DNA of 64,000 nt from Flavivirga algicola. Lineage in GTDB: Bacteria > Bacteroidota > Bacteroidia > Flavobacteriales > Flavobacteriaceae. The translations under genes were made by a program, and so were the position numbers. Under the pieces are notes generated by a model, which ran no database searches, was not told where the DNA came from, and saw only the letters and a program-made list of their open reading frames with translations. This document shows positions 4,855 through 46,183 of the stretch, piece after piece (positions within the stretch are counted from its first letter, which is position 1; each line of letters opens with the position of its first letter). The DNA lies in NCBI RefSeq assembly GCF_012910715.1, contig NZ_JABBHF010000002.1:563001-627000 (forward strand), read 5' to 3'.

Positions 4855-4883
4855 GTTAATTTCCCTTCTCTATTCGCGAATAC
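4855..4883 (-). promoter_or_regulatory. Putative activator site A (21-bp direct repeat, central AGAGA)
   Basis: In the sense of the GH110 gene the element reads ATTCGC, 15 bp including AATAGAGAAG, then ATTAAC; the two hexamers begin exactly 21 bp apart. It lies 148 bp before the GH110 start. It is one of seven similar elements (see 16759, 27553, 31413, 33845, 40104, 45959). Found by eye; no motif search was possible. Confidence 0.5.
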
Positions 4884-4957
4884 TTATAAGTTGAATTGCT
4901 CTACTAAGGAAATTGCTCACTGCAAGCATAATTTAAAAGCTACAAGGAGATTGATTC

Positions 4958-6121
4958 TTAGTCTTTTAAATTCGAGTCATCGAAGATCTTTTTAAAAAAC
5001 ATTAAAGCTCTATGAGCAGTTTTTGTGTTCATATAAAACACATGGCCTTTATTTTCTAAGAATTCCAATTCGCAGGATACGTTGTTTTCTGTAAATCTAT
5101 CACACAAATCTTTTGCATCTAATGGAGATACCAGTTTATCATTATCCCCATGTAACAATAATACAGGTGCATCGTCTGGTGAAATAAATCTATATGGTGA
5201 AATTTGGTCGTACCAATCAGGTTTTTCTCCTTTTGTCCACGGCCAAGAATAGCGAACACCAGTAAGTGCTGGCGTCGCAAAACCAGCAGCTGCTTGAATT
5301 TTACTTGAAAAACTCTGGTTTCCTCCATATCCTTCAAATACTTTTTCACTATTTGTTGTTGCCAAAATAACACTTAACATGGCCCCTGCAGAACCCCCGC
5401 TAGCACCAATTTGATCTGGGTTAATTCCGTAACGCTTAGCATTTGCACGTACCCATCTTACAGCAGCTTTGGTATCCCTTACACAGTCTACTGCATTATC
5501 AACAGCATTTAACATACGATAATCAATAGTTGCTGCTGCCACCCCATTACTAGCAAAGTATTGTGCATGGCCTTCCATCCAAGCACGCTTATGAACTGCT
5601 AAACCTCCTCCATGTATAAAAATAACACACGGAACAGATTCCCCACTTGTATTAAGTGGCATAAACAAGTCTAGTTTTTGACTGTACCTATCGACTGTAG
5701 AATAAGTCAAATTTCGATACGATCTAAAACTATTGCCATTAACTGTAAATGTTGGTGCATCACTAATTAATTCAAAACCTAGAATATTAGCTGACTTATA
5801 GAATTCCTTATGATTTTTTGATAAAAGATTGTTCCTTAGGCAGCTTTCAGTAAACTTTTTTAAAGCCTTTTCTGGTTTCGGAACTTTAGGGTTATCATAA
5901 TAGAGGTATCTAATATAGCTCCATCTAATTTGATAATATGCATCATTTAAGTCTTTGATATATTTTTTTTCATTCTTTAAAAAGTTTGAATAGGGCTCTA
6001 TTTCTTGTACTCTGGAAATGGCTTTCCTATATAACTTTTTATCATCTTCTGGTTGCCATTTTATACTACTGCATGAAGCAAAAAAAACTGAAATGATGAT
6101 CAAGAAAAAAGCCCTTTTCAT
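4958..6121 (-). CDS. Alpha/beta-hydrolase esterase of the BD-FAE/carboxylesterase type, lipoprotein
   Basis: Probable carbohydrate esterase that removes acyl groups. The 387-residue protein has a lipoprotein signal (FASCSS, Cys17). From about residue 160 it has an alpha/beta-hydrolase domain: oxyanion motif FIHGGG near 168-173, nucleophile motif GASGGSAG near 240-247, an acid region LLHGDND near 323-329 and the catalytic His in ENKGHVFY near the C-terminus. The first ~150 residues are helical, charged and not recognised. It is 33 bp downstream of the GH2 gene, so probably in the same operon. The acyl substrate cannot be read from sequence; acetylation or another ester on the galactan is an inference. 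Confidence 0.8.
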   Translation of the reverse strand: MKRAFFLIIISVFFASCSSIKWQPEDDKKLYRKAISRVQEIEPYSNFLKNEKKYIKDLNDAYYQIRWSYIRYLYYDNPKVPKPEKALKKFTESCLRNNLLSKNHKEFYKSANILGFELISDAPTFTVNGNSFRSYRNLTYSTVDRYSQKLDLFMPLNTSGESVPCVIFIHGGGLAVHKRAWMEGHAQYFASNGVAAATIDYRMLNAVDNAVDCVRDTKAAVRWVRANAKRYGINPDQIGASGGSAGAMLSVILATTNSEKVFEGYGGNQSFSSKIQAAAGFATPALTGVRYSWPWTKGEKPDWYDQISPYRFISPDDAPVLLLHGDNDKLVSPLDAKDLCDRFTENNVSCELEFLENKGHVFYMNTKTAHRALMFFKKIFDDSNLKD

Positions 6122-15002: not shown

Positions 15003-16697
15003 TTACTTTACAGTGATTTTAAAAACATCCTTACTCGAATTGATTTTCACGAAGTATAAACCTGCACTTAAACTCGAGATATTTACAGACGATGATTTCA
15101 AGTTCAACACTTGCTTAACTAATTTACCAGAAACATCATAAATTGATATATTACTATTTAAAGCATTTTGTATACTGATAAAATTTGTAGCTGGATTTGG
15201 TGTAATTTTTACTTCTGCTAATTCTGGTGTGTTACCTTCTGAGTCTAAAACTTTAGTTTTTAAAACCGACTTGTTGCTCCCATTTTGTAATGGATTAGGA
15301 GTATTCCTTAAAGCTCTAGGAACGAAAAGAACATTTTCGATGGGTGTAAAGCTACAATTTTCAAAATCATTAGCTCCTTGATCGGTGATGATATCTACAA
15401 CATCATTTCTATAATTTTTAGCAGTTAAACCGATGATTTTCACATTGTACGATCCACTACCACCGCTATTGGCAATATTGTAAATAGGTGCGATAGATGG
15501 TCCCGTATAAAATACTGTTGTACCTGGTATTTTAGTTGTACTAGTCCTATTTCTTAAAGCACATGGCATGTATCTTAATTCTTGTAATCTAACTTGAGCA
15601 GAATTACCAAAAGTAGTTGTAATGTTCCTAACTGTAGATCGATTGCTACGGAAGGAACCAATTGGAAAGTTTGATTCATCTGGTCTCCCTGGATTGCCTA
15701 TGGTTCTAAATCCTTTTGCTAAAAAGACAGCAAATTCACTGTTGGTAGCTGTAATATTTCTCATATCGAAGAATCCTTGAATATGTGTATGGGGTGAAGC
15801 AAAAACAGCACACCTACCATTAACCACTCTAACAAATCTACCCCAAATAGCATCCATTTTTGTAATTGCCCTGTTTTGAGTATTGAGTGTAGATAGCCCC
15901 TCACCTAATCCTGATTCCATTCTTATCGTGGCACCTCCATTTCCTTCCAGATTACGGAAGTATAGGTTATTTCCTGCTTGTATCTGAATAACGCCCCATC
16001 CTGGGTTGTACCCTGTACCTGTTATATTTTCTATAAATCCTCTTGTAGGCGCTGCGGCACGTTGTTGACGATTGTTAGACGGTCCTACCATTCCAAAAGT
16101 TCTACTAGGCAAGAATTCAATAGTAGGAAACTTAGTGCGATTATCGATAACATTAATGTTTGCAATCTTAAAGTTTCTAGCATTTCCAACTTTAAAGCTT
16201 CTCGAACCATCTCCAGGTCCCAATCTATTGGTTAGATTAATTGTAAATCTACTCGTATTAGAAAGCCCTGTAAAACTAAAATTTTCAATTACTCTACACC
16301 CTGTACATCCGTTTTCATCTTTACCATCTGCAATAATCATATTTCCAGGACCAAAAGGCTCTATCACCACACCATTAAAACATCTAATATGGACATGCGA
16401 TTTTAACCTCAATCCTCTCAGTCTATAGACTCCATTTTTTAAGATAAGGACACCGCCTCGAATAACGGTTCCATTTCCAAGAGTTCTTCTTAGATTAGAA
16501 AGCTTATCGATTTCTGCTTGGATTCTATTAGTGTCATTTCCAATTCCTGATGAAGGGTTTATAAATACTTTATCACTTGCTGTATTATTAATTGTGGGCG
16601 AGTAAAAGGTTGATAGTGGTGGTAAATCTTGAGCATTAACAATCAAACCAACTAATGCAATAACAAACAATAGTATATATTTTTTTAGAATTCCCAT
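15003..16697 (-). CDS. GH82-family (iota-carrageenase-like) beta-helix enzyme with T9SS sorting domain
   Basis: Predicted endo-acting carrageenase or a relative, secreted by T9SS. The 564-residue protein has a Sec signal (LIVNAQ), a right-handed beta-helix (about 40-460) and a C-terminal sorting domain (494-564, beginning ITPNPATNF). Blocks match the Alteromonas fortis iota-carrageenase as I recall it: FKVGNARNFKIANINVIDN (168-186), WGVIQIQAGNNLYFRNL (234-250), IRMES (258-262), SPHTH (301-305) and YTGPSIAPIY (397-406). Glu261 would be the proton donor and Gln238 and His303 also appear conserved, but the position of the proposed base Asp247 is Gly263. The -7 box candidate at 16720 and element at 16759 suggest its own promoter. 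Confidence 0.78.
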   Translation of the reverse strand: MGILKKYILLFVIALVGLIVNAQDLPPLSTFYSPTINNTASDKVFINPSSGIGNDTNRIQAEIDKLSNLRRTLGNGTVIRGGVLILKNGVYRLRGLRLKSHVHIRCFNGVVIEPFGPGNMIIADGKDENGCTGCRVIENFSFTGLSNTSRFTINLTNRLGPGDGSRSFKVGNARNFKIANINVIDNRTKFPTIEFLPSRTFGMVGPSNNRQQRAAAPTRGFIENITGTGYNPGWGVIQIQAGNNLYFRNLEGNGGATIRMESGLGEGLSTLNTQNRAITKMDAIWGRFVRVVNGRCAVFASPHTHIQGFFDMRNITATNSEFAVFLAKGFRTIGNPGRPDESNFPIGSFRSNRSTVRNITTTFGNSAQVRLQELRYMPCALRNRTSTTKIPGTTVFYTGPSIAPIYNIANSGGSGSYNVKIIGLTAKNYRNDVVDIITDQGANDFENCSFTPIENVLFVPRALRNTPNPLQNGSNKSVLKTKVLDSEGNTPELAEVKITPNPATNFISIQNALNSNISIYDVSGKLVKQVLNLKSSSVNISSLSAGLYFVKINSSKDVFKITVK

Positions 16698-19173: not shown

Positions 19174-19185
19174 TATTTCTTTTTT

Positions 19186-22749: not shown

Positions 22750-23898
22750 TTAAGTTTTAGTTATTGTTATTGTTTTATTGTTTATGTTAAAAACAAATGG
22801 TTTATTATCTGCAAAAGAATTGAGTACCTCTTCAATAGTCTCAATATCAAATGATGCAGTAAACACTTGATTATTCAATGCTTCATAATTATTAATGATT
22901 TCAACATTATAATGGCGTTCTAATTTTTTTACGATGTTTTTAAATGGTAAATTTTTAAGAACCAACCTACCGTTAATCCAACTTGTATAAATATCAGTAT
23001 CTACTCGTTTGATTTGGGTTTCACTATTTGTTATATCCCATTCTGCTTTATAGTTAGGTTTCAGTTCTAATACTTTATCACCAGAAATACTCGATAAATT
23101 AACCGCACCTTCTACTAATACAGTACTAATTGTTTTATCTTCAGGAAAAGCAGAAACATTAAACCTAGTTCCCAATACCCTAACATCCATATTCGAAGTA
23201 TTCACAATAAAAGGATGTTCCTTATCCTTACTTACGTCAAAAAAAGCTTCTCCTTCTAAATAAACTTTTCGTTTTTTTCCGTTTAAAAACTTAACTGGAT
23301 ATTTTAATGATGAACCTGCATTTAAATGTACCAAAGTACCGTCAGATAGTGCAATCTCAAACCTTTTGCCGTAGGGTATCACTAAAGTATTATAAATCAG
23401 CTTTTCCTCTACTCCTGTATCCTTATAATTCAGTTTGCTTCCTTCTTTTAGTCCCAGTATGTTCCCTTTATTATCTGTTATACTTTCTGTATCATTAGAG
23501 TTTATAACGATAACCTTCCCATCATCCAATTGTAATGTTATGGCTGTAGGGTCTATCTCTTTATTCTGAGAACCGATAAAAATATACCTATAGGAACCGT
23601 AACTTATGGTAACCAAAGCTAAAAATACTGCTGCATACCTTAACATAGGTCGTATAACATTAGCACTTTTAGACTTATTAATCCTTCTAGATTCATAACT
23701 TTTTAATACTTGATCCCAAGCAGTATTGGCATCTAGATTAATTAAAACAGAAATGTCCTCTCCACTAGCTTTAAGTTCTTTCAACCGAACATACAGTTCT
23801 TTATTCTCTTGGTGTTTGTACCAATTGTTAAAAACGATCGCTTCCTTAACCGAAAGTTTGTTGTTTAACTTTTTAAAAATAAGTTTATTTATATCCAT
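22750..23898 (-). CDS. FecR-family anti-sigma factor
   Basis: Inner-membrane anti-sigma factor that holds the ECF sigma at 23989 and listens to the STN domain of the SusC. The 382-residue protein has a cytoplasmic N-terminal part (1-85), one membrane helix (about 86-107, RYAAVFLALVTISYGSYRYI) and a periplasmic FecR domain with the conserved YGKRFEIALSDGTLVHLNAG and YLEGEAFFDV segments. A C-terminal DUF4974 domain (about 310-382) contains LKNLPFKNIVKKLERHYNVE. Gene order sigma-FecR-SusC on one strand is the usual arrangement. Confidence 0.95.
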   Translation of the reverse strand: MDINKLIFKKLNNKLSVKEAIVFNNWYKHQENKELYVRLKELKASGEDISVLINLDANTAWDQVLKSYESRRINKSKSANVIRPMLRYAAVFLALVTISYGSYRYIFIGSQNKEIDPTAITLQLDDGKVIVINSNDTESITDNKGNILGLKEGSKLNYKDTGVEEKLIYNTLVIPYGKRFEIALSDGTLVHLNAGSSLKYPVKFLNGKKRKVYLEGEAFFDVSKDKEHPFIVNTSNMDVRVLGTRFNVSAFPEDKTISTVLVEGAVNLSSISGDKVLELKPNYKAEWDITNSETQIKRVDTDIYTSWINGRLVLKNLPFKNIVKKLERHYNVEIINNYEALNNQVFTASFDIETIEEVLNSFADNKPFVFNINNKTITITKT

Positions 23899-23988
23899 AA
23901 AATAGTAATGAGATCCCTGTCTTTAACTTTTAGACAAACGAACTATCAAACAGGGTAGTCAAAAAATGATAAAAATTTAAAAACTGGC

Positions 23989-24519
23989 TTAAAAAAATAA
24001 GAATTCAGCAAAAATCAAGAGCCAAAAATAAGATTCTAATGTAGCCATCCGAAGTTGTTTATAGGCGTTTTTAACGTGGTATTTCACTGTATTTACAGAT
24101 ATGCCCATAGTTTGTGCTACGTTCTTATATTTTTGCCCTTCTACAACACAAAGAATGAATACCTTTTTACAGGGTTCAGGTAAAGACTCTAGTGCGTTGA
24201 TTAAATATTGTTTATCTTCTTTTTTAATTAAATCTTCTTCAAAGGAAGGTGCTAACTGTATGTTAGCTTCTGAAAGCGATTCCGTTTTTTTTAGCTGCTT
24301 CAACCTATTAATGCTCCTTTTACGTATCGACGAACCTATATAAGCTTTAAGGTTTAAAATATCTGATTCATTTTCTCTTAAAAGAATATTGACACAAACA
24401 TCTTGAACGACTTCTTCTGCCTCTGAAATATTTTTAACATAGGAGTAAGAGAGCATGCACCATTCATTATAATGATTTAGAAACAGTTCCTCTAGTTTTA
24501 TTTGCACCTTTTTACTCAT
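23989..24519 (-). CDS. ECF RNA polymerase sigma factor, locus 1
   Basis: Sigma-70 family ECF factor of the Bacteroidetes FecI-like group, 176 residues. Region 2 lies at about 10-75 (EAEEVVQDVCVNILLR) and region 4 at about 115-165 (LPEPCKKVFILCVVEG, then a helix-turn-helix VAQTMGISVNTVKYHVKNAY). It should drive the susC operon when FecR is signalled. It is the first gene of the minus-strand sigma-fecR-susC-susD series, 90 bp before fecR. Confidence 0.93.
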   Translation of the reverse strand: MSKKVQIKLEELFLNHYNEWCMLSYSYVKNISEAEEVVQDVCVNILLRENESDILNLKAYIGSSIRKRSINRLKQLKKTESLSEANIQLAPSFEEDLIKKEDKQYLINALESLPEPCKKVFILCVVEGQKYKNVAQTMGISVNTVKYHVKNAYKQLRMATLESYFWLLIFAEFLFF

Positions 24520-27204: not shown

Positions 27205-27658
27205 AGTGTTTTTGGTTATTATTTTTTTATGTTGTCCCTATATATTAGTATTATTCTATTGCTAATGGCCTTGCTATTTAATCTGGAAAATATGCACCTT
27301 CTAATTAATACCATGCCTCCAAAAAATTTTGACCTTTTATTATTTTTTATCTATTAAATAACCACTTAGTACCTTATTCTTTACAAAGCATTATTACACT
27401 TGATAAGTGATATTAAAATTAATGCCTTTAAGAACTGTACAAATTTTGTTTAAAAATGAAATTTTGTACAGCAGGATAGTTTGTTATTTATACGCTCTCT
27501 TTGAAATTAAACCTAAAAATAAAATGAATCTCCCTCACTTGAGTCCATTTAAGTTAATTAGATGTCTCTATGGGTAATATTAATGGGTTGCATGACATAC
27601 CCGTAAAGTCTACAAACCACATTTAAAGTAAATTAAAAAAAGTTTAAACCACTTCTAT
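27205..27658. other. 454-bp intergenic region with element B and a hairpin
   Basis: No coding ORF seen. It holds the repeat element at 27553-27581 and an inverted repeat CTGTACAAA (27435-27443) / TTTGTACAG (27463-27471) with a 19-nt loop. The hairpin could end the DoxX-gene transcript or be an operator; the sequence does not decide. Confidence 0.5.
27553..27581 (-). promoter_or_regulatory. Putative activator site B
   Basis: Sense strand: TATTAC and ATTAAC begin 21 bp apart around CATAGAGACAT. It lies between the DoxX stop and the GH2 start, 349 bp before the GH2 ATG, pointing the same way. The long distance implies a long leader or a second promoter. Confidence 0.5.
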
Positions 27659-30620: not shown

Positions 30621-31338
30621 TTAGAAAGCAACTTTAACCGTTGCAACCTTATCATCTTTCGATATTCTAACTAAATATACACCACTAGAAAGATTGGTAG
30701 CCGCCACTTTTTGCCCTGTTAAAGCATAAACGCTTTCTAAATTAGCACCTTTCACAGTAATATTCCCGTCATTAGCCAAAACAACTGCTCCTTCAATAAC
30801 ATTAGATTTTGTAGATAATGTAGGATCTGGGCCTACAAAAAACTCGGTATACCTTAATACATCAAATGTACTTGCATCTGCTTCGTTTGAAAAACTAATT
30901 GTTAGATCAGACATTGTAGCTCCGTCTGTAAAACCAGGAGTTATTTTTAAATCTTGAATAGTTGTAATCGTATTATCAAGAGCTAAAGTATGCGATTCTA
31001 CTGCCCCCCCCATTCTGTCTATAAGAAAATATAACTTTAGTAATATCGTTAGCACTAGCAGTTGCATCTATATGCCTAATTTTAAAACTAATGACATCTG
31101 TAGATAATAAAGTTCTCGCGTACGCACCTGTATAAGAAGCCACTCCTAGGATGCTACTAGTCTTAGTTTGAATTTTACCATCAGTTGCGCTTGTTTCTGG
31201 TTCAAATTGGTTAAAATCAGCACCTGTCCATTCTGCTTTTGCCTCATTAGCAGTACTACCAAAAACGGTAGAAACCACTTGGGCTTGCATTTGTAATACC
31301 GCAAAACAAAGGGTAAATAAAAAAGTAATTTTTTTCAT
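30621..31338 (-). pseudogene. Secreted T9SS-sorted protein interrupted by a +1 frameshift in a C8/G8 tract
   Basis: The first frame (31338 to about 30976) encodes a signal peptide (LQMQAQ) and about 110 residues of a beta-rich domain ending SYRQNGGG. The second frame (to 30621) continues AVESHTLALDNTITT and ends in a T9SS sorting domain (VYALTGQKVAATNLSSGVY...KVAF). The frames meet at eight C residues at 31004-31011. Removing one base gives the smooth join RQNGGAVES and a protein of about 238 residues. The cause may be a real mutation, phase variation, or a base-calling error. Function unknown; it has element F upstream (31413), so it belongs to the regulon. Confidence 0.75.
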
Positions 31339-31412
31339 AACTTATAAATTTTGATTATTTAATTAATGTCCGATAAAGCTATGATATATCAAGTCTAGAA
31401 GTGTTTCAATAT

Positions 31413-31440
31413 GTAAACAATATGTCTCTATTTATAAAAT
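31413..31440 (-). promoter_or_regulatory. Putative activator site F
   Basis: Sense strand: TTTTAT and GTTTAC begin 21 bp apart around AAATAGAGACAT. It lies 75 bp before the start of the frameshifted T9SS gene. One of the clearest copies. Confidence 0.55.
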
Positions 31441-31488: not shown

Positions 31489-33786
31489 TTACTTATAAAC
31501 AATCTCAACAAAAAATACTTCAAGAGGTTTTAATTTAGGGTTAGTGCTTACTTCTATACCATTAATGATATCCTTACATATAAATCTCTTTTTACGTTTC
31601 GATAATACAGATATCTCAGCATTTGATTTGCCAATATTTACTACAGACAAAACATCATTTCCGTCTTTATTTTTCACAACTCTCCATACACATCCTTTTT
31701 TATCCATAGCACTTTTTTCTTCAACCACTATGCCTGAGGTTAATCCTTTTTCCTCTATCAAGCTTAATGCCTTATCTTTTATATCATTATGTGAATCAAT
31801 TATTATCAAGTTCTTTTTTTCAGATTTTAAAGTTTTAGCAAATGGAATTCCATATTCGTTGTACTTTAGACTCTCCGAATCTATAATTACCATTCCGCCT
31901 CTATCGATATATTTTTGGATTTCACCAAACTCTTCTTGAGTAACAAAAGGTGTTTTATATATTATTAACACATCCCAATTATCATGATCTTGCTTTTGTA
32001 AAATACTTTTAGTAGCGAAACCTAAAGGCACTCCTTCAAAATGCATGGATTCATATAAATGATATATATTGTCCATATGTTCTTTTTTATTAATTGCTGA
32101 TGCTTTAGAATAATATATGCGGATTGGTTTTCTTTGGCGTTGCATGGCCATAATCACATCTGCATTGGCATTTAAATCTATCATTGTAGTGGCTACCTCA
32201 TTAGTTACTCGTGGTTGTTGACTATTTGAGGCCGCATATCCTTTACCCGTATAGCGTATTGATCCATCCTCCTGTCTGGGCCAAAACCATATCTGACTTG
32301 CTGTCATTCCATAAATATGAGCCAACCAAAAGGTGGCTCTGGCATATTGTGGGTCTAGATATAAATTTCTCGAACTTCCTGTAGACAAATAATGTAACTC
32401 AGAATTAAAATTAATTTTTTTGGGACTCACAGATTTCATGAAATCAAACCCCATACATAATTCCCGCCACTCAAATGCATAATGTTCTTCCCATTCTTTC
32501 GGAGCCCCCCACATTCTTGAATGTGTAGCTCCAGAATCGTTTCCAACTATACCACTTAATTCTGTAAGGGCTTCTAAATCTATACCGTGTACTCTTTGGT
32601 TCTCTGTCCAAAGATTAGGCATTATCTTCAGGTGTACTTTTGCCTCTTCATCGTGTTTTAAAATTTCAGATTTTAAAAATTGATACCATGCTGTCACACG
32701 ATCCATATTAAATACAGACCAATCATACCACATAGGCGTTCCCATATTCTTGGTATCTATCGGAATTTCAATTTTTACGCTTTTAAAATCTGAAAAATCG
32801 GTGCTCCATAACTTGTTTAGTTTTTCAATATCTTGATGCTTTTCCTTTAACCAATCTCTAAATTTAGCTTTTGTATATTCTGTTACAGGTCCTGATGCCC
32901 AAGCCAATTTATCTCCTGTTTTTTGAGTATAGAAATGCGGTTCATTACATAACATATATCCCAATTCAGAAAACTTTTTGTTTGCTGTATATGGTACTGT
33001 TGCTTTGATTAATTTTTTTTGAAAAGCTTTTGCTCCAGGGTTATCAATATCATAAACTGTATATCTATCGGTTGGTAAAACCAGTGAATCTCCATATTCA
33101 TCAAGAGCCCATTTAGGCACCGATTTATGATTCATAAATACAAAACCTACAGATTTGTCTTCTTTGTTAATTAACTTATTATGAATTTTAGGTATTAAAT
33201 TTCCGTTTTCTTCAACATATGAGGGGGTCATAAAAAACCCATCTAAATTACCATGATATTCTGTTAGCTTTTTTGTGTTAGGTTTCCAAACATAACCAGC
33301 TAAAAAAACAGGTTTACCCTCAAACATCAACTGGTCATCAACTAAAGAAACATCCCCCCAATCAACCATAGGTGCATATTGCCTAAATACTTTTTCATCT
33401 ATTACTAACTGTAAATGTTTTATCGCTTCTTCCAGCATTATAAAAACATCTTTACGCTCAAATTCTGGAAGGTGTTTTGCCATTTTTAAAGCCTCCTTTT
33501 TATATATAGGTGCTTTTTCAAAAAAACTCACATTTTTATCAATATGCTTCTCATCCCAATCTGCATAGGTTAAAAATATTTCTGCAGTTCTTATAGTAGT
33601 TTTTTCTTTTAAAACATTAATTCTCTTTTTCTCTGCTACTTTAATTAGTTTTTCAAGAGTTTTGATTTTTTCTTTTGCCTGTTTCCCTAATGACTGAGCG
33701 TTAATCATAGTAACTGATAGTAAAAAAACGAAAAGCAGTCTTTTTTTTAATGTTTTAGCTAGCATTATTTTATAGTTAAATTCCAT
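31489..33786 (-). CDS. GH42-like clan GH-A glycosidase, copy 1
   Basis: Secreted 765-residue enzyme related to GH42 beta-galactosidases and agarase-like GH-A families. Met8 (33765) gives a cleaner signal peptide ending INAQ than Met1. A helical, Lys/Glu-rich N-terminal domain (about 32-135) precedes the TIM barrel (150-500). Candidate acid/base is Glu282 in LGYMLCNEPHF and nucleophile Glu463 in INFNSELHYL. A Rossmann-like trimerization-type domain (about 560-690, YRIYYSKAS and IDRGGMVIIDSE) and a small beta domain follow. The 1004-residue paralog at 42755 shares the whole layout. Beta-galactosidase or endo-galactanase activity is inferred. Confidence 0.75.
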   Translation of the reverse strand: MEFNYKIMLAKTLKKRLLFVFLLSVTMINAQSLGKQAKEKIKTLEKLIKVAEKKRINVLKEKTTIRTAEIFLTYADWDEKHIDKNVSFFEKAPIYKKEALKMAKHLPEFERKDVFIMLEEAIKHLQLVIDEKVFRQYAPMVDWGDVSLVDDQLMFEGKPVFLAGYVWKPNTKKLTEYHGNLDGFFMTPSYVEENGNLIPKIHNKLINKEDKSVGFVFMNHKSVPKWALDEYGDSLVLPTDRYTVYDIDNPGAKAFQKKLIKATVPYTANKKFSELGYMLCNEPHFYTQKTGDKLAWASGPVTEYTKAKFRDWLKEKHQDIEKLNKLWSTDFSDFKSVKIEIPIDTKNMGTPMWYDWSVFNMDRVTAWYQFLKSEILKHDEEAKVHLKIMPNLWTENQRVHGIDLEALTELSGIVGNDSGATHSRMWGAPKEWEEHYAFEWRELCMGFDFMKSVSPKKINFNSELHYLSTGSSRNLYLDPQYARATFWLAHIYGMTASQIWFWPRQEDGSIRYTGKGYAASNSQQPRVTNEVATTMIDLNANADVIMAMQRQRKPIRIYYSKASAINKKEHMDNIYHLYESMHFEGVPLGFATKSILQKQDHDNWDVLIIYKTPFVTQEEFGEIQKYIDRGGMVIIDSESLKYNEYGIPFAKTLKSEKKNLIIIDSHNDIKDKALSLIEEKGLTSGIVVEEKSAMDKKGCVWRVVKNKDGNDVLSVVNIGKSNAEISVLSKRKKRFICKDIINGIEVSTNPKLKPLEVFFVEIVYK

Positions 33787-35609: not shown

Positions 35610-38483
35610 ATGAACAAATCATCGTTAGTAACACTATTTCTCACCTGCTTCATATATTTTTCACAAATATCAAAACTATATAGTTTTGAAAGCCCTGTTA
35701 AGAATTTAACCATTATAGATTCGAATGACTCTAATACAAAAAACACTTCTGCTATAAACAATAAAGGTCTATACAGTATTGAAACTGGGTATACTATTCA
35801 AAAAGTAAGAACTTGTCAATTTGAAGGAAAAACCAATATAATAGGAGGGTCTTATGAAGGAACAGTAATGGCAATATCATTTGATGGTTCAATACTATGG
35901 AAAAACAAACTTTCAGGGTATATGATTCATGATATATGGTGCGCAGACATTACTGGTAATGGTAACGAAGAAGTCTTGGTGGCTAATGCCGATGGCAACA
36001 TCTACTGTTTGAATCAACATGGCAAAACACTTTGGGAGTACACTAAAAATGAAGCACCAATGTATTCGGTTTGTGTCGTTAAAAAAAATGGTATCCCTTA
36101 CATTGTAGCAGGTAGTTTAGACCTTAACGTGTATTACCTTTCTGCTACTGGTAAGCTCGTAAAAGAATTAAAATCTGCAAGTTACTCTCAAGAAAAAACA
36201 TGGGGCACTACCTCTGCAAAAAGTTATATGCATTACTCCAATTTCTTAAGAAATATAAAAAAAGATGCGAACAACGATGTTTTGGTGATGCATGCTAGCA
36301 ATAATAATATACAAGACAGAGGCGCTATTTACCTATTTGAAGCTTTAGCAGAGCAACCTTACCTTAGAGTTGAAACCAAAAGCAGAGGCCCCATAGGAGA
36401 ATTAAAGATTTCAGACTATAACAAGGATGGCTTCCCTGAAATCTTACAAGGTGTTTCAAACCATCAAAATAATTGCGGTGTTTCACGTCTAAATTTAAAA
36501 GATAACACTACAAACCAATACCATATAAAACGATTAGGTTTTGGATATTCTGTAACTCAACCTGAACTAATTTTAGATGAGGGAGAGCAAAAATACTTGT
36601 TTCTAGTGGGTAACCATATTGTACTAGTAAACACAGATTTAAATCCTAAAAGTGAAAAGAAATTAGTTTCAAAATACGCTTACTATGATATGAGGAAAGT
36701 GTCAGGAACTAATAAAATTATATTGGCAAGTTGTCAAAGTGGAGGAAGTCAAATACATATCATTGATACTGGCAACCCAAAATGGAAAGAAGAGTATGTA
36801 AATCTTAAACCTAAAGGGAAACTCCAAAAAATTATTGAAAATACCGAAAGAATTAGAAAAAAATTAAAGTCTTACAAAGCACCAAAAGAACAGAGGTCTC
36901 AATATCCCATATATTTTATGACAGAGAACACCAATTCTGGTAGTGCTAAAACCCTAGCTAATACTATAAGAGCCAATTATGATTCTCCGCTTTTTCTAGG
37001 AGGAGGTTTTATGCGACAAGTTGAAAATTGGGATAGATCTGTAATGAAAAATAACGTTTACAAAAAAAGAAGAGATCGGAGAAAAAAATACAGTTTAACG
37101 CAACAGCAAGCGCAAGATTTTATAACGAAGTGGTATGATGAAAAACCCGACGGTGACACTGGTATAGCTTATTGGGGAGGACATGGTAACGACCCCTATA
37201 TGTTTCAGTTAAGCACAACAAAACAAGTGCTAAACAAGGCTAATGGGAAAAAAACGGTGTTGATATATCCAGAGTTAGAAGACCATTCCGATGATTTTGC
37301 CTGGGTCATGAAAGATTTATTTCTGCCATTAGCAGAATATGCTAAATCCAGAAATGCTAATATTTATGTGAGAACCAAGCATAATTTTTGGCAAGCCAAT
37401 GCGTATATGCCTATGTGGAAACCTTTGGCATCAGGTGAGTATTCCAATGTTTTTGTTCCTTCCATGGAAGAAACATCAGACAAGGCCATGGATATTAGTA
37501 TTGCCAGTAGAGTTGGTATTTGGGCCAGTGGTGCGGTGAACAACTGGGGAACGCGCACCGTACCAGACAACCCAAGTTTTGATAGATCTAGACAATTTAG
37601 CCATCAAAGATTACCAAATCACTTTCTAAGACACTTAATATACCATATGGCTAATGGCGCCAGCTATTTAAACAACTTTCCTATAGACCCAGATTATATG
37701 AGTTTAGTTTGGGAATTAACCGCCAAAGGCGTATTGTTTGTTCCTAAGCCAAATGAAATTGTAAGTTTTTCGCCTGTGCATCTAAGTATGCTTGAACCAG
37801 ATAAGGCTTTTCTTGAAGAAGGTAGTAGCTTAAAATGGTCTACACATTATGATGAAGATTTTCTTAATAACAATGCATTTGTTTTTAGCAGACAAAATGC
37901 TAATTGGTTAGGAGCAAAAGTTAATAAATGGGACTTTTCAAGCTATACTTCAAAAACCAAAGATAGAAGGCAAAACTATTTACCTAATTACTCTAATGGA
38001 CTTGTTTTAATAACACCTCCACAATTAGGTTTTGGTGCCGATCTTTCTGCACCAAGAGGGAAGCTACAAGATCACTTACATCCTTTGTATAAAGATATTT
38101 TAAAAGAGTATTACTCTGATGGGAGATACTATTATTCAGCAGATGGAACTAAAAAATATGATGCCAGTACTTATTATATGAATATAGAAAAAGACATCGA
38201 AGAACGTTCTAAACTAATTCCACTAACCGTCACTGGTAAGGTAGCTTGGGTAGTGTCTCAAATTTCCCCAATCAGATTACGATTGACAGTCATTGATGGA
38301 GGTTACTTAAATCAAAATGACAGAGAGGCAATAATATCTTTTAATACCGTCTATCCTTTAAAAATGACTGATATTTTAGATGGTAAATCTTTTGATCTAT
38401 CTGATAAAAAAAAGATAAAAGTAGACGTACCGTGTGGCACATTTAGGTTTATTGATATTATATTGAAAACACCTTTACAATAA
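35610..38483 (+). CDS. Beta-propeller protein resembling GH150 lambda-carrageenase
   Basis: Secreted 957-residue protein. After a signal peptide (to about 27) comes a PQQ/FG-GAP-type beta-propeller (about 60-390), with repeats such as IIGGSYEGTVMAISFDGSIL and ADITGNGNEEVLVANADGN. A C-terminal region of about 550 residues has WGGHGNDPYMFQLS, LIYPELEDHSDDFAWVM, VPSMEETSDKAMD and ASGAVNNWGTRTVPDNPSF. Length and two-part plan match the Pseudoalteromonas carrageenovora lambda-carrageenase (942 residues, N-terminal propeller, family GH150) as I recall it. I cannot align the C-terminal part from memory, so the family is likely but not certain. If correct, it makes the endo-cut in lambda-carrageenan. 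Paired with the PhoD-like gene and facing a sulfatase. Confidence 0.62.
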   Translation: MNKSSLVTLFLTCFIYFSQISKLYSFESPVKNLTIIDSNDSNTKNTSAINNKGLYSIETGYTIQKVRTCQFEGKTNIIGGSYEGTVMAISFDGSILWKNKLSGYMIHDIWCADITGNGNEEVLVANADGNIYCLNQHGKTLWEYTKNEAPMYSVCVVKKNGIPYIVAGSLDLNVYYLSATGKLVKELKSASYSQEKTWGTTSAKSYMHYSNFLRNIKKDANNDVLVMHASNNNIQDRGAIYLFEALAEQPYLRVETKSRGPIGELKISDYNKDGFPEILQGVSNHQNNCGVSRLNLKDNTTNQYHIKRLGFGYSVTQPELILDEGEQKYLFLVGNHIVLVNTDLNPKSEKKLVSKYAYYDMRKVSGTNKIILASCQSGGSQIHIIDTGNPKWKEEYVNLKPKGKLQKIIENTERIRKKLKSYKAPKEQRSQYPIYFMTENTNSGSAKTLANTIRANYDSPLFLGGGFMRQVENWDRSVMKNNVYKKRRDRRKKYSLTQQQAQDFITKWYDEKPDGDTGIAYWGGHGNDPYMFQLSTTKQVLNKANGKKTVLIYPELEDHSDDFAWVMKDLFLPLAEYAKSRNANIYVRTKHNFWQANAYMPMWKPLASGEYSNVFVPSMEETSDKAMDISIASRVGIWASGAVNNWGTRTVPDNPSFDRSRQFSHQRLPNHFLRHLIYHMANGASYLNNFPIDPDYMSLVWELTAKGVLFVPKPNEIVSFSPVHLSMLEPDKAFLEEGSSLKWSTHYDEDFLNNNAFVFSRQNANWLGAKVNKWDFSSYTSKTKDRRQNYLPNYSNGLVLITPPQLGFGADLSAPRGKLQDHLHPLYKDILKEYYSDGRYYYSADGTKKYDASTYYMNIEKDIEERSKLIPLTVTGKVAWVVSQISPIRLRLTVIDGGYLNQNDREAIISFNTVYPLKMTDILDGKSFDLSDKKKIKVDVPCGTFRFIDIILKTPLQ

Positions 38484-38500: not shown

Positions 38501-39961
38501 TCATAAATTAACTCCAGATCCCTGCAAAGAAGTATCATGATCCCACATAATCAACCAAGGGTCTTTAGTATTAATTTGAAAGGTCTTTAACTTCAATTTT
38601 AGAGATTCTAAAATAGCTTTATATTCATTTTGATGGGTTAAATTATTTGTTTCTGAAGGGTCTTTTGATACATTATACAATTCAAATTCTGGTCTTTGCA
38701 TATAATCTGCTACAGTACGTTTTCCAAAATATTTCTCATCATTTCTATAAATAGCCTGCCACGTTGAAGCTGCCCATAAATCTGAAGCAAAGGGATAATC
38801 TAATGGATACGCTATATTCCATATCAATTTATAATCACCGTCAATTATCACACGCATTGGGTAATACATTGTTATTTCATGAAAGGTATGTGATGCATAA
38901 ATAGTCTGCCATTCACTCGCTTCTTCTTGGTGTAATATTCCTTTGAATGATTTACCATGAAAATCCTTTGTATCATAATCTACATCCGCCATATCTAAAA
39001 TTGTAGGAGCGAGATCTACCCAAGAAATCCTTGACTGGTTCACGATTCCCTTTTTTGAAGATTTTGGGTCTTTAATTATGCATGGCAATTTAATTCCTGG
39101 TTCATAAACAGTAGTCTTAGCTCCTGGAAAAGCCATACCATTATCTGAAATATAGAATATAATGGTGTTGTCCATTTTTCCAGAGCTCTTTAAATGGCTC
39201 ATTAACTTCCCAAAACCTTGATCTATTCTAGATACACTTTGATAATACTGTGCAATTTCTTCTCTCGTTTGTTTCGTATCTGGTAAAAATTCTGGCACTA
39301 AAACATCATCAGGAGCATATATAACCTGATTAACATCATCATAACCTTGAGCTTTATTTCCAAAGGAATTTGGCGTATCCCAAGGTTCTGGACTAAAAGG
39401 TTGACCACGATGAGGATCATCTGTACAGAAGTATAGAAAGAATGGTTTATCTGAATTTAAAATACCCGAGCTGACATTAGCCATTTCAACCGTATTTCTT
39501 GGGTTAGCCTTTAAAACCTCATCAAATTTATAAACACTTTCTGGTGCTACATGATACTTACCAATTCTTGCTGTCACATAACCAGCTTCTGAAAGTCTGT
39601 TTGAAAGCGATTTTACTTCATTATAAGTACTAAAATGATGGTAATCATGTACATGACCATAAGAGCCTGTGGCATGGCCATAGAGTCCTGAAAGGATTAC
39701 AGATCTACTGGCTGCACAACTTGCGCTGGTACAATACGCATTGGTAAATCTAACACCGTTCGAAGCTAATTTGTCTAAATTGGGTGTTTTAATTATGGGA
39801 TTCCCATACGAACCCAAAGCATCTGTACCATGGTCGTCTGCTACAAATAATATGATATTGGGTGGAATTGAAGTATCTTGTACAATAACAACGCTATTAC
39901 TTTTATTTACATCTGAACAGCTAAGAAACAAGAGAAAAAAAAACGAAATATATTTTACCAT
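38501..39961 (-). CDS. S1-family formylglycine sulfatase with CAASR motif, lipoprotein
   Basis: Secreted or outer-membrane sulfatase that removes ester sulfate. The 486-residue protein has lipobox FLSC (Cys15), metal ligands Asp42-Asp43 in ADDHGTDALGSYG, and the maturation motif CAASR (82-86) instead of the usual C-x-P-S-R. Further motifs are GKYHVAP near 145, DDPHRGQ near 195 and FYISDNGMAFPG near 285. Its 3' end meets the GH150-like gene tail to tail (17 bp). The Ala at the Pro position occurs in some S1 subfamilies; the formylglycine-generating enzyme is not in this window. Position-specific activity on galactose sulfate cannot be stated. Confidence 0.88.
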   Translation of the reverse strand: MVKYISFFFLLFLSCSDVNKSNSVVIVQDTSIPPNIILFVADDHGTDALGSYGNPIIKTPNLDKLASNGVRFTNAYCTSASCAASRSVILSGLYGHATGSYGHVHDYHHFSTYNEVKSLSNRLSEAGYVTARIGKYHVAPESVYKFDEVLKANPRNTVEMANVSSGILNSDKPFFLYFCTDDPHRGQPFSPEPWDTPNSFGNKAQGYDDVNQVIYAPDDVLVPEFLPDTKQTREEIAQYYQSVSRIDQGFGKLMSHLKSSGKMDNTIIFYISDNGMAFPGAKTTVYEPGIKLPCIIKDPKSSKKGIVNQSRISWVDLAPTILDMADVDYDTKDFHGKSFKGILHQEEASEWQTIYASHTFHEITMYYPMRVIIDGDYKLIWNIAYPLDYPFASDLWAASTWQAIYRNDEKYFGKRTVADYMQRPEFELYNVSKDPSETNNLTHQNEYKAILESLKLKLKTFQINTKDPWLIMWDHDTSLQGSGVNL

Positions 39962-40344
39962 GCTTAGTTGATTATCAAATCTGAAACTTTATTTTTAATA
40001 TTGACATTATATTTAATACACTTAGATATAAACGATTTATCTAAAATATAAGGATTTTAGATCACCAAATTATCAAAACAAAATCTCTCCATTGTCTGTG
40101 CTAATAAATAATAAGTCTCTTAAAGTAATTTAGATTTTATTAAACCATCCTATCACTTTAATAAATGTTAAATTTATAAAAACAGGAGCTACTTTATTAA
40201 ATTTTAATTGTTTACTAAAAACTAGAAGTAATCTAGTGAAACCAGGTAGGTATAATTGAAAATGATTCCTATAGGGTGTTATCCTTAATTATTACTGTTT
40301 TTTAAGTAGAAAGTTGTAAACTTTTAAACCTATACAAGAAAACC
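39962..40344. other. Divergent promoter region between two sulfatase genes
   Basis: 383 bp without a coding ORF. It carries element D (40104-40130) in minus orientation for the CAASR sulfatase and a weaker plus-oriented match (CCTATAGGGTGTTAT near 40268-40282) for the second sulfatase. An inverted repeat ACTAGAAG/CTAGTGAA near 40219-40240 was noted but is short. Confidence 0.5.
40104..40130 (-). promoter_or_regulatory. Putative activator site D
   Basis: Sense strand: AATTAC and ATTTAT begin 21 bp apart around TTAAGAGACTTA. It lies 143 bp before the minus-strand sulfatase start. Confidence 0.5.
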
Positions 40345-42042: not shown

Positions 42043-42753
42043 TCAATCGGTATTAAAACTCCATATTTGTCCTATGGATTCACCTCCTTTTCCATCTTTT
42101 GCGACAACTTTCCAATAATATGTAGTTGACGCACTTAGGGAAACATTTTTTTTGTTATCAGATTGATTATCTCCCACTTTAGAAACTGGTGGATTTGCAG
42201 TGTCGAAATACACGTCAAATGTTAAATCATCATCATCTACATCTGTTGCTTTCCACTCTAAATCTATTGAAGCCACTGATACACCAGACCCTTTCGCTGG
42301 CGCTACCAATACTGGCGAAAAAGGCAAGTGATTCTCCTCTGCATCACCTTCTGTATAAAATTGATAAACCTCTGAGTAATCACTTTTAAAGTTTTTACTA
42401 TCTCTAGCCAATACACGCCAAAAATAAGCTCTGCCCCTTTCAAGCGTTACGGATTTTATTGTTTCCTCTTTAAGCGTAAATGTCTCTGCATCTGAAAAAT
42501 CATTCTTTGTGGCTATCTCTAGTACATAAAATACAACATCTCCATTTGGATCGGTAGATGCACCCCACTCAAATTCAATGGTATTATCTATGCACAGTAA
42601 GTTATTGGTTGGGTAAGTTAACGTTGTTACCTTTCCTGGTGCCTGATCGTCTTGTGATGCATCATCTCCTCCTCCGCTACATGAAAATATAAGTGCTACG
42701 GTAAATATTAATGCTACGGTTTTTATTATGCTTATCTTTTTCATCTTTGTCAA
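42043..42753 (-). CDS. Lipoprotein with two fibronectin type III-like domains
   Basis: A 236-residue surface lipoprotein (FSCSGGGDD, Cys25). Two tandem Fn3-like sandwiches are visible: about 45-130 (TIEFEWGAS...AYFWRVLARDS) and 140-235 (IDLEWKATD...TYYWKVVAKDG), each ending with the typical WRV/WKV-A-D strand. No catalytic motif. The gene is one base from the stop of the T9SS GH42-like gene, so the two are translationally linked. It may tether or present the enzyme or bind glycan; both are inference. Confidence 0.75.
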   Translation of the reverse strand: MTKMKKISIIKTVALIFTVALIFSCSGGGDDASQDDQAPGKVTTLTYPTNNLLCIDNTIEFEWGASTDPNGDVVFYVLEIATKNDFSDAETFTLKEETIKSVTLERGRAYFWRVLARDSKNFKSDYSEVYQFYTEGDAEENHLPFSPVLVAPAKGSGVSVASIDLEWKATDVDDDDLTFDVYFDTANPPVSKVGDNQSDNKKNVSLSASTTYYWKVVAKDGKGGESIGQIWSFNTD

Positions 42754-42754: not shown

Positions 42755-45700
42755 TTATTTTTTTACAATTTTTACATTAACAGGTCTATCCAGTAGTAAT
42801 TCTGCAAAGTAAATACCATCTGGTTTGTCTTCTAAATTTATTTGTACCTTTCCTGAAACTACAGGATATACCTGAGACGAAATAATCTGGGATTGCAACC
42901 CATAAATATTTATTGAAACACTTTCTACCAATACGGGTATATCTAACTCGATAACTCCTGTTGTTGGATTAGGGTATGCTTTTATATTATCTAGAAAGTC
43001 TACACGTTTTAGCATAAGCCCCTCGCATTCTACGTCTGTTTTTATTTGTACTTCGTCACCTTGGCTTACCTGCACACTAAATGATGTTGCACTGGTTTGG
43101 TAAGCAACCGCATCGTTTATTAAAACTGTGTAAGGTGCCGTACCTTCCTCTACTTCAACAGACATGGTTCCAGACTTATTATCAACTTTTGAAGTACCCG
43201 ATACAGATGTAGCGGCTTTTATCTCTAAATTATAACATTTAATAACTGCAGACCCTTCTACCTTGATGCATAATTCGTATGTCCCTGGTTGTATCCCTTC
43301 TAGAGCAATATCTTTTGTAAAACTTGTATCTGTGCCATCAAAGGTTACTACGTAATCCTGCTCTATATCTGCAACTATATTTATCTTACCATTATCTTGA
43401 TCTGGACAGGTTTCACCTGCTGTGGTAATAGTAAATCGATTGTCCTCTACCGTGCGCTCTCTTACTGAAAACAAGTAGACCACTTCTGGTTGCATGGTGA
43501 AATTATCATCCAATTTCTCCCCTGTTAATAAGTTAGTACAGATCAAAGTATTACTATTTCCTTTTAAACCTAATTCTAATGTAGCTTCTGTTTTTCCTAT
43601 GTTAATAATATTTATAATGTTTTCGCCTTCATTACTAACATAACTTCTCCATACACACCCTTTTTTGCCAATATCATTGGTTTCTGCCAATGTAAAAATT
43701 GGTGAATGTCCCTTATCATTTACTAAGTTTAATGTTTTTGTTGTAAAATCTTCCGTTGACGATGCAGAGAGTAAAACACCTCCATTGTTTGTATTTAGGG
43801 TCTTAGTCAAACTCCTTCCGTATTCGTCCTTTTTTAAACTTATGGCATCTATAATTACTGTACCTCCATTATCCAAATACAATTGTAATGCATCGAGTTC
43901 TGTTTCGGTAACATATTCTGTTTGGAATACAGCAATCACATCCCAATTTGAATTTGGTTGTTTTTTAATAATGTTCTCTGTAGCAAATCCTATAGATTGT
44001 CCTTCAAAATATAAGGACTCATAAAGTTCGAACAAACCACTCATATGATCGGACTTATTTATAGCCGAGGTTTCTGAGTAAAATAAGCGAATGTGTTGTT
44101 TTATATGTTGTAAGGCTGATATATGCTCTGAATTTGCATTGAGATCCATAAATGTTGAATGCAATTCAAAGACGGCTCTTGGTTGCTGAACTATAGAACC
44201 TGCCACTTCAAATTCATTGCTATTATACCCACCATCTGTGGTTCTTGGCCAGTACCATGTTTTAGCTGAATTCATACCTTGAAGTATAGCATGCCAATTT
44301 ACAGAGCGCACATATGACGGGTCTAAAAACAGGTCTGTAAAACCTCCTGACTGTATAAAATGACTTTCAGAGTTATAATTAACTTTGTTAGGGGATACGG
44401 ATCTAAAGAAGTCATAAGACATTGCAAAATCACTCCATGAATAATGATAACGATCTTGCCAAGGCTTTGGCGCTCCCCATCTTAATGAATTTTTGGCACC
44501 AGCATCATTACCAATATTTACAGTCATATCTGTCAATGCCTCAAAATCTAAACCATTGTGTCTACCATTTCCAGACCACATACCAGGTATTAGCTTAATA
44601 TGTGTTTTTGCATCTGGGTCATGTTTTAATACTTCATTATTAAAAAATTTGAACCAACTTGTAACTCTATCTTGGTTAAATTTCATGATATCGTACCAGA
44701 TGGGCTTTCCTCTTTCGCTGGTTGGCATTGGAAAATCATCTATTTCTACAGCATCAAAACTTGCGAAGTTTTTGCCCCATAATGTATTTAGGTTAGCAAT
44801 ATCTGTATGTTTATTTTCTAACCAATTCCTCAAACTATCTTTAGCATGTTCTGAAAATTCAACCACTTGCCAAGTACCAGATAAATTCCAATGTGGCTCG
44901 TTAGTTAACATATAACCTTGCTTGGTGTAATTTTTACCTTTTGTAAGAGGCACAATGCCCGCGCAAAGTTTTCCTACAACTTCTCTTGCTCCTGGATGGC
45001 TTATATCATAAGCAGTATAATATGCACGTCCTGTTTCTATCTCTGGATATTTTTGAAGCAACCAATCTGGCGTTCTTCTATGACCAAAAAAGAAAGTTCC
45101 AAAATTACCGCTTGGCTTGGTTGTTAGTTCGTTTCTTAACCATGGTACAATGGTTCCGTCTTCTTTTGAGACATGTCTAGGGTCTACGTAATCTCCTCCG
45201 TAAGATCCAAAAAAATCTGTAAGTTTATGTGGTCCTGCTGTCCCTTGCTTTCCACTATAATCAGCCAGATAAATAGGTTTACCATCAAATATCATTTGAT
45301 TTCCATTATAAGATATTTGTGACCAATCGATATTAGGAATAGGGTTTCTGACTATATCTCCATTAATAATACCAGTTAACGTAGCAATCGATTCATCTAA
45401 AACTGTGATTACTGCACTTCTCTCATAAGTTGCTAAATTCTCGGCTAACTTTTCTGGAGTCGTTTCATGAAAGTTATGTAAACCATCAAACATTGATACT
45501 AATGAAGATTTGTTATCTTCATCCCATTTGGCATAAAAGAGGAATACCTCTGCTAAACTTATTGCCATTTTTTCCTTAGTAGCATCAAACCCTTCATTCT
45601 CTGCTTGGGTTATTAGTTCTTGTAAGGTTGCCATCTTTTCCATGGCTTGTTCTTCGGTACCTGTAAAATCTTCTATGTCAATTTTTGGTATCCTAACTTG

Positions 45701-45769
45701 GCCCATACTTAATTGGCTTGCCAAAAAAAGCAATAAAATTCCAAGTATTAGCGTAATTCTTTTTCTCAT
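42755..45769 (-). CDS. GH42-like clan GH-A glycosidase with T9SS sorting domain, copy 2
   Basis: Secreted 1004-residue relative of the protein at 31489. Signal peptide to about 23 (QLSMGQ), helical N-terminal domain (30-140), TIM barrel (155-510) with acid/base Glu291 in GYMLTNEPHW and nucleophile Glu468 in VNYNSESHF, then a trimerization-type domain (560-690). Extra sandwiches (about 770-920) follow and a T9SS type A domain (about 930-1004, IKAYPNPTTGVIELD...VKIVKK). The sorting domain means it is exported to or through the surface, while copy 1 probably stays periplasmic: an outside/inside pair. Element G lies upstream. Confidence 0.77.
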   Translation of the reverse strand: MRKRITLILGILLLFLASQLSMGQVRIPKIDIEDFTGTEEQAMEKMATLQELITQAENEGFDATKEKMAISLAEVFLFYAKWDEDNKSSLVSMFDGLHNFHETTPEKLAENLATYERSAVITVLDESIATLTGIINGDIVRNPIPNIDWSQISYNGNQMIFDGKPIYLADYSGKQGTAGPHKLTDFFGSYGGDYVDPRHVSKEDGTIVPWLRNELTTKPSGNFGTFFFGHRRTPDWLLQKYPEIETGRAYYTAYDISHPGAREVVGKLCAGIVPLTKGKNYTKQGYMLTNEPHWNLSGTWQVVEFSEHAKDSLRNWLENKHTDIANLNTLWGKNFASFDAVEIDDFPMPTSERGKPIWYDIMKFNQDRVTSWFKFFNNEVLKHDPDAKTHIKLIPGMWSGNGRHNGLDFEALTDMTVNIGNDAGAKNSLRWGAPKPWQDRYHYSWSDFAMSYDFFRSVSPNKVNYNSESHFIQSGGFTDLFLDPSYVRSVNWHAILQGMNSAKTWYWPRTTDGGYNSNEFEVAGSIVQQPRAVFELHSTFMDLNANSEHISALQHIKQHIRLFYSETSAINKSDHMSGLFELYESLYFEGQSIGFATENIIKKQPNSNWDVIAVFQTEYVTETELDALQLYLDNGGTVIIDAISLKKDEYGRSLTKTLNTNNGGVLLSASSTEDFTTKTLNLVNDKGHSPIFTLAETNDIGKKGCVWRSYVSNEGENIINIINIGKTEATLELGLKGNSNTLICTNLLTGEKLDDNFTMQPEVVYLFSVRERTVEDNRFTITTAGETCPDQDNGKINIVADIEQDYVVTFDGTDTSFTKDIALEGIQPGTYELCIKVEGSAVIKCYNLEIKAATSVSGTSKVDNKSGTMSVEVEEGTAPYTVLINDAVAYQTSATSFSVQVSQGDEVQIKTDVECEGLMLKRVDFLDNIKAYPNPTTGVIELDIPVLVESVSINIYGLQSQIISSQVYPVVSGKVQINLEDKPDGIYFAELLLDRPVNVKIVKK

Positions 45770-46183
45770 AAAATTCTTTTTTCTATAATTAACGCTTCAA
45801 TTTATAAGCTGATATTTGTCTATATATTATTAAAAAGCATGTTAATTTTTGTTCTAAAATTCCGATAAACAAATCTTAATATTCATTTTAAATTAAAAAT
45901 TGAAGCTTAAAGTTTGATGGCAAGTAAATGATTATTAAAAAAAAAGGTGTTTTGTTTTGTAAATTTTAAGTCTCTATTTGTAAATACTCGTTAACTACAA
46001 GCAGTGCAAATACTATTTGTAATAGCTACAAAATCGATAATACGACTTAATAAAGATTAGCACATTGGAGTTCTTCCTTATTAAAATAAATTCGTTGTCT
46101 TTAATTTAGCTTCAGTGGTTTAAACCAAAGCTCATTTTTTCTAAAAATGCGGAAAAAGCACAAGAATCTACTTCTTGATTTCC
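45770..46183. other. 414-bp intergenic region between locus 1 and the cofactor operon
   Basis: AT-rich with no coding ORF. It contains element G (45959-45987) for the GH42-like gene. CAAATCTT at 45870-45877 is a partial -7 box in sense orientation. No clear terminator for the CobW-type gene was found. Confidence 0.5.
45959..45987 (-). promoter_or_regulatory. Putative activator site G
   Basis: Sense strand: two identical ATTTAC hexamers begin exactly 21 bp apart around AAATAGAGACTT. The best copy of the element. It lies 190 bp before the T9SS GH42-like start. Confidence 0.6.

Follow-up and report, generated by a model that had tools for sequence, protein, structure and literature searches.

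Operon after operon in one gene cluster of Flavivirga algicola is preceded by a similar short stretch of DNA, which raises the question of whether these stretches form a genuine regulatory element and, if so, which regulator reads it. The cluster, locus 1, lies in a 64,000-nucleotide stretch (positions 563,001 to 627,000 of contig NZ_JABBHF010000002.1; hereafter the window) and encodes a lambda-carrageenase (CGLA), GH110, GH2 and GH42-like enzymes and sulfatases, with the CGLA identifying its substrate as lambda-carrageenan. A first-pass annotation of the window had noted seven copies of the element, each upstream of a locus-1 operon. Here we report that the element is real, and that its copies are very probably binding sites, or boxes, for a hybrid two-component system (HTCS) regulator encoded just outside the window (C12:554776-558897, C12 being the contig that bears the window), and possibly also for its paralog (C12:516092-520225). 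We infer binding from co-occurrence with a clade of HTCS regulators, adjacency to SusCD genes, 21-bp repeat geometry and phasing with a -7 box.

Anatomy of the element

All seven reported sequences were present at the coordinates given for them, all on the minus strand and each preceding a minus-strand gene, as expected if the copies are oriented with the downstream gene. The repeating unit, WTTTAC...AnAGAC, is a half-site of 16 bp, and its second copy starts 21 bp after the first. The proposed 21-bp direct repeat was thus upheld, but the supposed central AGAGAC proved to be the 3' end of half-site 1 rather than a separate centre, and half-site 2 carries its own, weaker GAnAC copy past the end of the element as first reported. 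Built from nine sites (C12:554686 and eight window sites, including the copy at 4855), a matrix of half-site 1 averaged 16.0 bits when placed on itself and 6.5 bits at +21, and no more than -4.4 bits at any of the 59 other offsets tried from -20 to +40. Columns 15-16 of half-site 2 read AC in eight of these nine sites, the exception being the 4855 copy, and columns 8-16 had not been used to pick any site. A direct repeat of this kind, with about 21 bp between two sites, is the arrangement that characterizes HTCS boxes. The hexamer pair by itself was uninformative, as bare ATTTAC-N15-ATTTAC had 11 exact matches in the F. algicola genome against 17 for a reversed-pattern control.

Discovery in relatives and the corrected set of sites

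For discovery independent of F. algicola, we assembled 185 upstream regions from ten loci in eight related genomes, own genome excluded, with loci chosen for HTCS and lambda-carrageenase homologs lying together. An expectation-maximization search (random seeds, width 37) recovered TATTTACTcatAAAtACATTTtATtTACttttAaAtA with a log-likelihood ratio (LLR) of 462.8, compared with 105.7-143.8 for 15 dinucleotide-shuffled sets, and this de novo motif was the same 21-bp direct repeat as the window element. Fifty-six of the 185 regions reached 12 bits (antisense control, 11/185); the 48 that reached at least 17 bits entered a relatives-only model (R2) and the -7 box count below, and eight were dropped.

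The 37-column relatives' matrix ranked the seven corrected window sites among its 12 best matches in 150 kb (both strands), where they were mixed with three matches that we did not take as elements (C12:547813, C12:541313 and window 54423; 13.0-14.5 bits), whose scores overlapped those of the true sites (12.1-23.6). A 68-column matrix, built only from relatives and scanned over both strands of C12:483001-633157, separated the sites more clearly: the nine best matches all scored at least 18.0 bits, whereas the tenth scored 14.4 and 30 first-order Markov surrogates of the scanned stretch peaked at 15.1. The support over shuffled sequence on which the first-pass proposal depended was therefore obtained from both the shuffled sets and the surrogates. 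Two of the nine lay outside the window, at the GH2 promoter adjoining the HTCS gene (C12:554657, 30.9 bits) and the GH110 promoter adjoining its paralog (C12:515800, 27.7 bits). The other seven form the corrected window set (scores from the 68-column matrix; E values from the relatives-only model in the own genome):

4731..4798, - strand: predicted HTCS box with phased -7-like box (TTT in phase), promoter of the GH110-SusC-SusD operon; 22.6 bits
16719..16786, - strand: predicted HTCS box with -7 box TAGATTTG, promoter of 15003-16697; 33.2 bits, E 2.1e-5
27513..27580, - strand: predicted HTCS box with TATTTTTA, promoter of the GH2 gene 24847-27204; 28.9 bits, E 9.6e-4
31373..31440, - strand: predicted HTCS box with TAGCTTTA, promoter of 30621-31338; 18.2 bits
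33805..33872, - strand: predicted HTCS box with TTATTTTG, promoter of the GH42-like gene 31489-33786; 32.9 bits, E 1.4e-5
40064..40131, - strand: predicted HTCS box with TAATTTG, promoter of the sulfatase 38501-39961; 28.1 bits, E 7.4e-4
45919..45986, - strand: predicted HTCS box (two identical ATTTAC, as first noted) with TTACTTG, promoter of 42755-45769 and 42043-42753; 18.0 bits

Six of the seven copies first reported were thus confirmed, and the 4855 copy failed. That copy (4815..4882, - strand) scored -11.2 bits, lacked the conserved AC of half-site 2 and had no -7 box, so it is at most a degenerate auxiliary site; the site at 4731-4798, 84 bp downstream, takes its place at the same promoter. 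The 4731 box ends 52 bp before the GH110 start codon, which lies at 4707, whereas the 27513 box is followed by a long leader, with the start codon 337 bp away. The 16719 box probably also serves the genes behind 15003-16697, encoding a melibiase-like protein (weak match), GH2, DUF5703, GH2 and an esterase, and the DUF5703 and DoxX genes behind 30621-31338 are probably also under the 31373 promoter. Since the 4731, 31373 and 45919 sites were not among the matches listed for the relatives-only model in the own genome (best 150 of 9424 candidates), their support comes from the 150-kb scan, the -7 box and an own-site model that is circular for them. The nine source sites of this own-site model (R1) were C12:554686 and eight window sites, among them the 4855 copy rejected later; the left-out sites that it recovered were C12:447710 (E 0.012), C12:541322 (E 0.40) and C6 (partial, E 0.46).

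Consistent with the first-pass annotation, nothing comparable was found near locus 2 or the cofactor operon of the window; the best locus-2 matches (13.8 bits with the own-site matrix, 13.0 with the 37-column relatives' matrix) were both inside genes. Two further candidates were set aside: C12:541282, which has both half-sites and no -7 box, and C9:36136, which lies inside an open reading frame (ORF) and was taken as chance. The former sits beside a transposase-like ORF (C12:540206-541349, named from its translation).

A -7 box in fixed phase

Downstream of the 37-mer, in columns not used in motif discovery, a degenerate sigma-A -7 box (TAnnTTTG) followed the element at 20 bp. Among the 48 relative sites, T occupied +26 in 48, +27 in 47 and +28 in 36; the flanking columns were weaker (+22 T, 26/48; +23 A, 32/48; +29 G, 24/48). 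The majority consensus at that position is TAnnTTTG, the sigma-A -7 box of flavobacteria (PMC9723704). A strict TAnnTTT occurred at +22 in 13/55 sites, compared with at most three at any other offset. TT stood at the two strongest columns in every window site of the corrected set, in the two sites outside the window (at the GH2 promoter and on the side of the HTCS paralog) and in the C6 copy described below, but not in the 4855 copy or at C12:541282. Box-to-start-codon distance was 42-74 bp in 42/56 relative regions. With this spacing, the proximal half-site would lie close to -33, a place suited to an activator in contact with RNA polymerase.

The linked regulator

The first-pass annotation had suggested an AraC-type or hybrid two-component activator and had, correctly, found none in the window. 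A complete HTCS with an AraC-type DNA-binding domain adjoins the locus beyond the left edge, with a paralog on the same contig:

C12:554776-558897, - strand: HTCS gene, 1373 aa, 4.1 kb left of the window edge
C12:516092-520225: HTCS paralog, 53-54% identical, 35 kb from the first HTCS

The first of these combines Reg_prop repeats, Y_Y_Y, HisKA, HATPase_c, a receiver and HTH_18/AraC in one polypeptide (Pfam), and so gives the locus the linked propeller-sensor/HisKA/HATPase/receiver/AraC gene that marks a HTCS-controlled polysaccharide utilization locus (PUL). It follows SusC, SusD and a further gene in lipoprotein position of locus 1 on the same strand, about 40 kb from the lambda-carrageenase. 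Its ISHEIKTP and ISDIQMP motifs look intact, and its receiver carries a SHIP motif of the kind linked to phosphorylation-controlled DNA binding (PMC11253607). The sequence NRTHF(Y/F)QKVK in the first recognition region occurred in 15 of the 18 aligned HTCS of at least 44% identity and in none of the eight aligned below 44%. Across 12 other CGLA genomes, the closest HTCS (44-59% identity) lay within ~10 kb of CGLA in eight, which are the training genomes.

Distribution in the genome and the family

In the 5.02-Mb F. algicola genome, R2 gave 10 sites at E <= 0.02 (best 150 of 9424 candidates). Nine of these fell within a carrageenan super-locus at C12:447-609 kb, which holds duplicated gene sets and both HTCS paralogs (binomial 3.7e-13, with the E cut and the super-locus bounds set after seeing the list); four of the nine are window sites from the corrected set of seven. 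Matches were thus not scattered upstream of unrelated genes, the outcome that would have told against the first-pass proposal. The two matches next in rank, C36:107916 (E 0.022) and C12:298295 (E 0.026), lay outside the super-locus. The tenth site (C32:195478-195545, + strand; L125:9478-9545) scored 38.7 bits, above every window site and second best in the genome, and precedes an unlinked DUF4249/TonB-receptor pair. An element persists at the ortholog in a same-genus genome (G019), even though the intergenic sequences can no longer be aligned. Another genome of the genus (G248), without the HTCS clade or CGLA, had no match below E 0.08 despite DUF4249 homologs at 49-50%.

Paralogous sets of carrageenan genes, again accompanied by the element and by a second HTCS, occupy two stretches of C12 (438001-458000, L123; 503001-523000, L076). 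A near copy of the 45919 element was also found on another contig (C6:85905-85972, - strand; L012:19905-19972; 19.5 bits with the 68-column matrix), where the promoter resembles that at 45919 by eye over ~100 bp. The gene behind it has other domains (Sortilin-Vps10, ricin-B lectin, Por secretion tail), and this is perhaps a promoter copied to another gene.

Four CGLA genomes outside the training set gave 31 matches at E <= 0.05, 25 of which lay within 50 kb of CGLA or an HTCS-clade gene (G036 5/5, G334 7/8, G388 7/8, G180 6/10; counted by reading coordinates). Among 397 family genomes, the element (E <= 5e-4) was present in 14/14 with CGLA, one of which (G246) has a weak CGLA match only, and in 7/383 without; the scan used stricter filters that lose weak matches and kept the best 12 candidates per genome, making absences less certain. 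With the eight training genomes excluded, the counts were 6/6 and 7/383 (Fisher 3.7e-10). Six of the seven CGLA-negative genomes with the element (G019, G001, G129, G184, G236, G289) carry a clade HTCS at 48-54% identity, and the seventh, G346, had no clade-HTCS match at E <= 1e-140. The element was found in 19/19 genomes with the HTCS clade and 2/10 without, the 29 genomes checked being CGLA or element matches plus hand-picked controls, not a random draw. A CGLA search of genome contigs yielded one locus, in a Flavicella metagenome-assembled genome, with HTCS, CGLA and four elements of at least 30 bits. The sites thus lie upstream of SusC/D and enzyme operons and are conserved together with orthologous HTCS across genera, as expected of the boxes of a HTCS-controlled PUL.

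Genes of locus 1 without the element

Other features of locus 1 have no element of their own or were of interest for its gene content:

1..2694, - strand: SusC-like TonB receptor of locus 1, running off the left edge (named from translation)
22750..24519, - strand: FecR anti-sigma and extracytoplasmic function (ECF) sigma factor, beside a second SusC/D pair, no element in front
35610..38483, + strand: lambda-carrageenase (CGLA, GH150-type; Pfam CGLA_M E 2.1e-188)

The 33805 box sits in a divergent region shared with the PhoD-CGLA operon, and the 40064 box likewise in one shared with a second sulfatase operon; these plus-strand operons could therefore possibly be activated from the shared boxes. 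The second SusC/D with its FecR/ECF sigma is probably under ECF control; the best scores for the element before 24519 (ECF) and before 22635 (SusC2) were below zero. Window 17443-24519 (- strand) is an element-less SusC/D and FecR/ECF segment inside an HTCS-linked locus, with two regulatory systems interleaved. Within 30621-31338, two overlapping ORFs (30621-31067 and 30976-31338, - strand) had no Pfam match; an own-genome paralog (C12:449853-450599) and the counterpart in a relative (G019, C1:498833-499573) are instead single ORFs of 246-248 aa, so the window copy appears to have a broken reading frame.

Which regulator reads the element

Several observations weigh against HTCS control as set out above. 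The two HTCS paralogs share the box, so that either might act at a given site. The closest HTCS is on a different contig from CGLA in G036, G180 and G388 and ~50 kb away in G334, and a close HTCS is lacking in G246 and G346, both of which have a single element; the co-occurrence in the 29 genomes is an association only. The -7 box is degenerate, both in its T, A and final G columns and in the 13/55 strict matches. On the sense strand, neither the PhoD-CGLA operon nor the second sulfatase operon has an element, whereas CGLA has its own in several relatives.

AraC-family sites can have the same geometry as the element, so the box might instead be the target of a stand-alone AraC-family regulator whose gene lies in another part of the genome. 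Zobellia requires such a regulator, CgrA (ZGAL_3159), to grow normally on kappa/iota-carrageenan (PMC5698469). We consider this improbable here, since all 19 of the checked genomes with the HTCS clade have the element, an HTCS gene lies beside the sites in F. algicola and in the eight training genomes, and the 36 window ORFs scanned, the part of the genome searched, include no AraC gene. The ECF and FecR genes inside locus 1 raise the further thought that this ECF sigma (23989-24519) reads a promoter to which the element belongs, but no element precedes the ECF gene or SusC2, the phased box resembles the sigma-A TAnnTTTG, and a 21-bp direct repeat of 16-bp half-sites is, to our knowledge, not an ECF promoter layout, which leaves this explanation with very little to commend it. 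A last reading is that AT-rich stretches were matched by eye and resemble one another by chance, in keeping with the failure of one of the seven reported copies and with a bare hexamer pair no commoner than its reversed control; it is countered by the shuffle, surrogate, held-out-genome and family-wide tests and refuted by de novo discovery without the own genome, and we give it next to no credence.

Under HTCS control, a carrageenan oligosaccharide would be sensed by the periplasmic propeller of the HTCS, whose receiver would then be phosphorylated. Two AraC-type DNA-binding domains would occupy the two half-sites on one DNA face and the HTCS would recruit sigma-A RNA polymerase, with the proximal half-site replacing the -33 element, to switch on the genes for lambda-carrageenan breakdown. 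A broader proposal, which we hold at even odds, is that in Flavobacteriaceae a single rigid cassette of 68 bp combines the HTCS box with the sigma-A -7 box, at a spacing that does not vary and with the proximal half-site taking the part of the -33 element. This cassette would be common to the two HTCS paralogs here, and the regulon would extend beyond the PUL to the unlinked DUF4249/TonB-receptor pair and the lone lectin/propeller protein, so that the cassette would move between loci as a unit.

The element offers a DNA code for a lambda-carrageenan regulon that is tied to one regulator clade and can be searched for in other flavobacterial genomes. With its fixed spacing from the -7 box, the geometry of HTCS activation becomes a rule that can be put to the test, and promoters and operon starts are easier to predict where RNA data are lacking. 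A box common to two HTCS paralogs makes cross-talk directly testable.

Comparison with known systems

Lambda-carrageenan loci are also found in Pseudoalteromonas, a gammaproteobacterium. The locus there has GH150, GH110, GH2 and sulfatases, as in locus 1, and this enzyme set was shown to degrade lambda-carrageenan (PMC12549532); the words "regulator" and "Bacteroidota" do not occur in the text of that paper. The carrageenan regulon of Zobellia galactanivorans, like that of F. algicola, consists of dispersed co-regulated genes in a marine flavobacterium, but it is a kappa/iota system with the stand-alone AraC regulator CgrA, and "two-component" is absent from the text of the paper on it (PMC5698469).

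HTCS boxes of Bacteroides thetaiotaomicron were predicted in 2013 by Ravcheev et al. as direct repeats averaging 21 bp, or two helical turns (PMC3878776). The HTCS_Man boxes in that work have the same layout as our element, two 16-bp sites with a 5-bp spacer, and there too the regulator lies beside SusC/D with some regulon members distant. They differ in substrate and in belonging to a species outside the marine Flavobacteriaceae, and the likeness is one of layout, box sequences not having been compared. "TAnnTTTG", "transcription start" and "carrageenan" do not occur in the text of that study, which therefore gives no -7 box distance in those words. For the arabinan HTCS BT0366 of B. thetaiotaomicron, an HTCS fragment shifts target promoters, the kind of binding predicted here, and a supplementary figure of that 2016 paper, by its legend, marks both HTCS sites and -7 boxes, each predicted, on shared promoters (PMC5061871), so the two have already been drawn near each other. 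Substrate and family again differ, and no spacing rule was found in the part available. A Bacteroides paper joining HTCS, transcription start site, motif and PUL had no "direct repeat" in its text (PMC11501099). Within partial coverage of the literature, we found no paper joining HTCS, TAnnTTTG and "promoter", and among the matches listed for carrageenan with "hybrid two-component" neither term appeared in a title or abstract. As no literature was found to give a spacing rule or a lambda-carrageenan HTCS box, both the assignment to lambda-carrageenan and the constant spacing from the -7 box may be new. The element itself, given that published HTCS boxes are direct repeats of ~21 bp, is a well-supported addition to a known kind.

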